Below are positions 9,210-9,944 of a stretch of 64,000 bases of DNA, piece after piece. The notes beneath the pieces are model-generated. The model made no database searches and had not been told where the DNA came from. It saw nothing but the letters and a program-made list of their open reading frames with translations. How positions within the stretch are numbered: position 1 is the stretch's first letter; each line of letters starts with the position of its first letter. Position numbers and translations under genes: made by a program. Source of the DNA: a bacterium (GTDB lineage Bacteria; Vulcanimicrobiota; Vulcanimicrobiia; Vulcanimicrobiales; SCRA01); assembly GCA_004298675.1 (NCBI GenBank), contig SCRI01000064.1:1-64000 (forward strand), in the 5' to 3' direction.

Positions 9210-9360
9210 GACCTCTCTCCTCCCATCGCGCCCTCGCTGATTTCAGCGCAACGTGGCTTTTCCGCGCCTGGAAGCGTGTCCTGGTGCGCGCGGGAGCGTC
9301 CCGCGCGCCTTCCGAAGATTTCCGCAGACCGAAGCACAAACGTACGCAAGGGAGGGTGCT

Positions 9361-9897
9361 ATGGGAGTGCTCGCAAGGCTAGCGACCGTGCTGCGAGTGC
9401 TGCGCGGCGCAGAACGTCCGCTGCAGGCATTACATCTCTTGCGCAGGCGACCGGCCCTGCTCGTCGCCGTCAATGCTTTCGAAATCGCGCACCTCATGAG
9501 CGGGCGGATGCCGATGCACCTCAAAGCGCTGGCGCAGATCAAGACCTCCGCGCTGGTCGGCTGCCCGTTCTGACTGGATATCGGCTCGGCCGTGGGCAGA
9601 GCATTTGGTGTACGCGAGGAGCAACTGTTGGAGCTGCCGCGCTATACCCGTAGTCCGGCGTTCGACGCCGACGAGCGTCTCGTGCTCGATCTCGCCGTGG
9701 CGCTGGCGCAGACGCCGGCCGACGTCTCCGCCGCGCTGCGGGAGCGGCTGCGCGCGCGTTTCGCAGAGGCGCAACTGGTGGAACTGGCCGCCGTGATCGC
9801 GTGGGAAAACTATCGCGCACGCTTCAACCGCGCCTTCGGGGTCCAGCCCTCCGGCTTCTCCCACGGCGCCTTCTGCGCATTGCCGGAGCAGACGTGA
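9361..9897 (+). CDS. Candidate selenoprotein, AhpD/carboxymuconolactone-decarboxylase-like (in-frame TGA = Sec71)
   Basis: The gene starts at ATG 9361, 5 bases after GGAGG. The frame runs to KTSALVGCPF, meets TGA at 9571-9573, then continues open in the same frame as LDIGSAVGRAFG... to TGA at 9895. Without the internal TGA it is a normal-length (178 residues) AhpD/CMD-family protein. In this family the redox motif is CxxC (for example CPFCxDIGSA). Here the second Cys position is exactly the TGA, giving Cys68-Pro-Phe-Sec71. The second half has the family tail WENYRARFNRAFGVQPSGFS. A hairpin suitable as a bacterial SECIS follows the TGA, and a strong terminator follows the second stop. AhpD-like CxxU selenoproteins are known from metagenomes. 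The alternative is a nonsense mutation or sequencing error. Likely role: thiol peroxidase or redox enzyme. Confidence 0.85.
9582..9602 (+). promoter_or_regulatory. Candidate bacterial SECIS hairpin after the TGA
   Basis: Within 8-30 bases of the TGA two alternative small stems can form. One is GCTC (9584-9587) with GAGC (9599-9602), enclosing an 11-base loop that begins GG. The other is CGGC (9582-9585) with GCCG (9589-9592). Bacterial SECIS elements are short hairpins with a G in the first loop positions about 16-37 bases from UGA, which the first fold satisfies. The stem is short and was folded only by eye. Confidence 0.45.
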
Positions 9898-9898
9898 C

Positions 9899-9929
9899 GC
9901 GGCCGGCTGGCCCTTAAGCAGCCGGCCGC
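9899..9929 (+). terminator. Intrinsic-terminator-like hairpin after the selenoprotein gene
   Basis: A perfect 10-base stem GCGGCCGGCT (9899-9908) / AGCCGGCCGC (9920-9929) with an 11-base loop starts 2 bases after the stop codon. There is no T-run after it, so it may act with Rho or as an mRNA-stabilising structure. Its position supports the view that the gene ends at 9897 and not at the internal TGA. Confidence 0.7.
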
Positions 9930-9944
9930 TCACTCATGGGGCGA

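Follow-up and report, generated by a model that had tools for sequence, protein, structure and literature searches.

AhpD-like and CMD-like selenoproteins with a CxxU motif were reported in 2005 by Zhang et al. (PMC1088965), and AhpD-like selenoproteins are present in current inventories (PMC13188914, PMC9312934). The AhpD-like selenoprotein of COG2128/TIGR01926 (PMC1088965; AhpD-like 1 in PMC2398784) belongs to the same superfamily as the protein described here and has a CxxU motif with Sec in the second position; our protein scores 33.4 bits against TIGR01926 (peroxidase-related enzyme), below the cut-off of 81.8. The CMD-domain selenoprotein of PF02627 (PMC1088965; AhpD-like 2 in PMC2398784), which we liken by its description, shares with our protein a PF02627 match above the gathering score and a CxxU motif.

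The gene considered here lies in a 64,000-nt stretch of bacterial DNA (the window). For this gene we computed the reading frame, the placement of an in-frame TGA opposite Cys, a covarying SECIS-like hairpin, purifying selection, the decoding machinery of the genome and the fold of the product. Judged from the sequences, the TGA is almost certainly read as selenocysteine in an AhpD/CMD redox enzyme, and marks neither a pseudogene nor a sequencing error.

Reading frame, fold and active site

The frame is open from 9361 to 9894 and ends at a TGA stop (9895-9897). Codon 71 is its sole interruption, with no further stop or frameshift in the gene, and read-through yields a protein of 179 letters, stop included (Table 1). 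The sequence-only reading had claimed that the frame continues on either side of this TGA, that a ribosome site precedes the ATG and that a strong hairpin follows the second stop; all three claims were borne out, and homologues were found along the whole length of the protein. The distal hairpin is a very stable inverted repeat (GCGGCCGGCTG...CAGCCGGCCGC) and possibly a 3′ mRNA end or terminator. Because the DNA of this window is 65% GC, it is in itself unremarkable for a TGA to part two open stretches: 36 TGA, 37 TAG and 21 TAA codons lie there between open runs of at least 71 and at least 100 codons. Chance in-frame TGA codons being this common, the claim depends on homology. In a scan of ten further TGA read-through frames of the window, no Pfam domain was seen to span a TGA. 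The neighbouring genes (fatty-acyl-CoA ligase, enoyl-CoA hydratase, ABC substrate-binding protein and ArsR regulator) do not recur as a block at other loci.

Table 1. Features of the locus, in window coordinates
Feature	Position	Strand	Description	Basis
Predicted AhpD/CMD-family selenoprotein gene	9361..9897	+	178 codons + TGA stop	PF02627, full-length homologues, AlphaFold
Shine-Dalgarno-like GGGAGGG	9350..9356	+	4 nt upstream of ATG 9361	read from sequence
Predicted redox motif Cys68-Pro-Phe-Sec71	9562..9573	+	TGC CCG TTC TGA	homologue alignment
Predicted Sec-encoding TGA	9571..9573	+	conserved as TGA	aligns with Cys of homologues
SECIS-like hairpin	9584..9602	+	loop GUG 9592-9594, 7 pairs, one G.A mismatch	
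Strong hairpin directly 3′ of gene	9898..9930	+	no T-run	fold -32.1 kcal/mol, z = -5.07

The read-through protein matches the Pfam CMD domain (PF02627) with 34.6 bits against a gathering cut-off of 23, and AlphaFold gives it an all-helical AhpD/CMD fold (pLDDT 93.9). The best PDB folds are AhpD-like PA0269 (2o4d, 2ijc, 7xw1) and the debrominase Bmp8 (6ohi); among relatives with solved structures, PA0269, Atu0492 and Bmp8 come out best. PA0269-type AhpD and Bmp8 have the same fold at about 25% identity, but carry CxxC where the window protein has CxxU, that is, Cys in place of the predicted Sec. We also compared the His 4 residues after and the Glu 12 residues before this motif, which we take to be the AhpD relay residues. 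The window protein departs from classical AhpD (M. tuberculosis type) at both, with Gly75 and Ala56 instead. The His is found in 7 of 74 close relatives versus 23 of 27 members of a sister clade; the Glu, kept in 20 of those 27, is missing from the close clade, in which Asp73 and an Ile-Ala-Trp-Glu-Asn-Tyr stretch are invariant. With His and Glu missing, peroxidase activity is uncertain.

The loss of these two residues from the close clade, together with the high rank of Bmp8 in the structural and profile comparisons, would also fit a real selenoprotein that carries out Bmp8-like reductive dehalogenation of an aromatic compound and not peroxide or disulfide reduction. We consider this unlikely: the identity to Bmp8 is only about 25%, no genes of halogen metabolism were noted in its neighbourhood, and PA0269/Atu0492-type proteins give the better profile match.

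Conservation of the TGA among homologues

Scanning 84,980 species genomes yielded 75 loci; the search pattern had Cys codons at the site, so the scan was without bias toward TGA. Across the 105 homologous stretches that cover the site (the window's copy and a same-genus homologue each counted twice), codon 71 is TGA in 86, TGC or TGT in 17, TCG in one and GAG in one, and Cys68 is invariant in the alignment. The earlier reading had placed the TGA at the second Cys of a CxxC motif and had proposed aligning both halves of the protein to homologues; in that alignment the TGA indeed stands opposite the Cys of the catalytic motif, not a non-Cys position. In the maximum-likelihood tree, the window sequence clusters with the same-genus homologue (L047) and one acidobacterial sequence; the clade that holds them comprises 71 rows, 68 with TGA, two with Cys and one with Ser. 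This clade spans at least eight named phyla (Acidobacteriota, Actinomycetota [Rubrobacteraceae], Myxococcota, Planctomycetota, Chloroflexota, Gemmatimonadota, Rokuibacteriota and Fidelibacterota). What takes the case beyond chance is that dozens of independent assemblies encode a single protein across the TGA, always placed at exactly that codon.

Gene callers would see a truncated 70-residue ORF, as had been anticipated, and standard annotation would break the gene into two false fragments. That truncated ORF is also what a CxxC protein gene decaying into a pseudogene would offer; a TGC to TGA nonsense mutation is a single step, and the same-genus genome does hold a broken second copy. However, the TGA is kept in nearly all members of the close clade across many phyla, and comparison with the same-genus copy gives a dN/dS of 0.20 before the TGA and 0.10 after it, with no second stop or frameshift; against L048 the values are 0.31 and 0.17. 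By these ratios, protein-level purifying selection downstream of the TGA is at least as strong as upstream. Given this selection and the conservation of the TGA, we reject a nonsense pseudogene as very improbable.

Several homologues depart from the common form. The broken copy (L072:1844-2179, on a contig of FW021_bin.48) is internally deleted, is without the CxxU region and stands downstream of a branched-chain-type ABC substrate-binding protein gene; it looks like a decayed duplicate or an assembly artefact. In a Rokuibacteriota homologue (L085:4989-5441), the TGA has become TCG (Ser) and a Cys has been gained one residue earlier (CPCS). This is a natural case of Sec loss, in a genome that keeps selA and with a hairpin that has the same G.A mismatch as that of the window. 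Finally, the window's order contains another AhpD-like clade, distant from the first (L014, L016, L017, L019, L021, L022, L028, L029, L032 and L036), which has kept the AhpD His and mixes TGA with Cys forms at the same codon; Sec/Cys interchange seems to be frequent there.

SECIS-like hairpin and decoding machinery

A hairpin stands at a fixed distance from the TGA in nearly all TGA homologues, with the consensus UCUGCC-GUG-GGCAGA. In the window its GUG loop starts 18 nt after the TGA and the fold has an energy of -10.1 kcal/mol; an inner G.A mismatch occupies the position where most relatives have U-A, and extra outer pairs offset it. Taken by itself, the folding energy of the window hairpin is unexceptional (z = -0.9 to -1.9), and over the family single-sequence folding energy after the TGA gives a weak signal (mean z of -0.97 in TGA members versus -0.22 in Cys members). 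It is covariation, not single-sequence folding energy, that is decisive for the hairpin. Over 69 homologues, 95.9% of the cells of the six-pair helix are paired, a value that none of 500 shuffles equalled; cells with a double change number 34 versus 8.3 in the shuffles, and the covariation score is 0.281 versus at most 0.143 in slid controls. The codons within the hairpin are nearly uniform as well (Ser76 is TCT in 63 of 67, Gly79 GGC in 55 of 56 and Arg80 AGA or AGG in 64 of 67), a constraint on codon choice that goes beyond the need of the protein. The bSECIS model (PMC13188914) has a spacing of 16-37 nt, a loop of 3-9 nt, a G in the first two loop positions and an upper stem of 4-16 bp. The window hairpin agrees with most of this, having an 18-nt spacing and a G at the first loop position, and its interrupted stem of 7 pairs falls within the stem length only if one mismatch is allowed.

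The earlier reading had proposed a search of the genome for selA, selB, selC and selD, and all four were found. On contig C71, selA (543 bits) adjoins selB (303 bits in all), and a tRNA-Sec (71.7 bits) with anticodon TCA (UCA) lies about 10 kb further on; selD (380 bits) is on contig C43. The selD gene (L131, G000:C43:69356-70279) has an in-frame TGA of its own at the active-site motif SSCAG-U-ASKVG, and SelD is likely a second selenoprotein of the organism. Among the other genomes with the TGA form, selA is over the cut-off in 42 of 47, and no convincing selA was found in the remaining five, which may reflect assembly incompleteness; it is also over the cut-off in all three genomes with a Cys or Ser form. 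In the sample of the window's order, selA occurs in 15 of 15 TGA-bearing genomes versus 36 of 46 others (Fisher p = 0.055), a link that is merely borderline because selA is nearly universal there.

These findings also bear on whether the TGA might be read as another amino acid, through an altered genetic code or ordinary suppression. The frame would be open under any reassignment of TGA; yet the gene's own stop is TGA, the site matches Cys in homologues and not Trp or Gly, a complete Sec machinery with a tRNA-Sec(UCA) is encoded in the genome, and a covarying hairpin lies downstream. An altered code is scarcely credible in view of the conservation and the machinery, and we reject it. A single-base sequencing or assembly error has a negligible chance of being the cause, as TGA stands at the same codon in a separate genome of the genus (L047/G002; full-length homologue, 78% identical protein) and in dozens of unrelated assemblies.

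Selenocysteine decoding, and its use in a thiol-redox enzyme, had been the central claim of the earlier reading, and it holds with the four sel genes present, the TGA opposite Cys and a same-genus genome that also has TGA. We predict that SelB and tRNA-Sec(UCA) deliver selenocysteine, that the SECIS-like hairpin directs its insertion, and that the ribosome thereby places it at the UGA. The product would be a thiol/selenol oxidoreductase of about 20 kDa with the AhpD/CMD fold and the Sec71-Cys68 pair as its redox centre. This pair would most likely pass from a reduced form to a selenenyl-sulfide and back, a cycle that most likely reduces some small oxidised substrate such as a peroxide or a disulfide. 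We infer the insertion itself, the redox cycling and the substrate; for Sec71/Cys68, a redox role is the best reading.

Sigma-factor neighbours and relation to known families

In some other bacteria the gene has a recurrent neighbour. At L051 and L090 it adjoins a SigJ/SigX4 sigma factor, and by similarity the same is seen at more loci; these sigma genes (L051:56-871, L090:5503-6366 and L079:5446-6309) share the strand of the Sec-CMD gene, lie at a distance of 10-40 nt from it, and probably belong to the ECF41 group. The CMD genes that neighbour ECF41 have been described as all CxxC (PMC3426412). For the window gene itself we reject an ECF41 link, as its genome yielded no SigX4/ECF41 protein over the cut-off and the window yielded no ECF41 promoter.

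Selenoproteins are less studied in soil and groundwater bacteria than in anaerobes. The present gene indicates that an uncultured lineage decodes selenocysteine for use in a redox enzyme. The wider clade forms an AhpD/CMD branch that is nearly all Sec and occurs mostly in soil and groundwater bacteria; its Sec-to-Cys and Sec-to-Ser exceptions are natural test cases for the need of Sec. A broader proposal is about as likely as not: that the gene represents a distinct AhpD/CMD subfamily, essentially fixed for Sec across at least eight named phyla, without the AhpD His/Glu relay, under SigJ/ECF41-type control in some lineages, and serving bacteria mostly of soil and groundwater as a Sec-dependent stress enzyme with its own chemistry. 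The signatures of this proposed subfamily are CPFU-x-D-x-G-S-A and I-A-W-E-N-Y-R-A-R.

The best curated match is NCBIfam NF053654, 'YciW-related (seleno)protein' (GroundWater_YciW), a family already named as a (seleno)protein and matched by 48 of 48 aligned homologues. The window protein matches it with 1e-29 and 103.6 bits, far below the cut-off of 310 bits, and is therefore a neighbour of this family, not a member. The kind is not new, as CxxU AhpD-like selenoproteins have been established since 2005, and the gene is a previously unlabelled member. Mildly new are a clade nearly fixed for Sec, its lack of the AhpD His and Glu, and the SigJ/ECF41-type neighbour in a few soil bacteria. AhpD-like proteins (AhpD-like 1 in PMC2398784) were mostly Cys forms in the Global Ocean survey (902 versus 299 Sec forms), whereas the clade of the window gene is almost all Sec.
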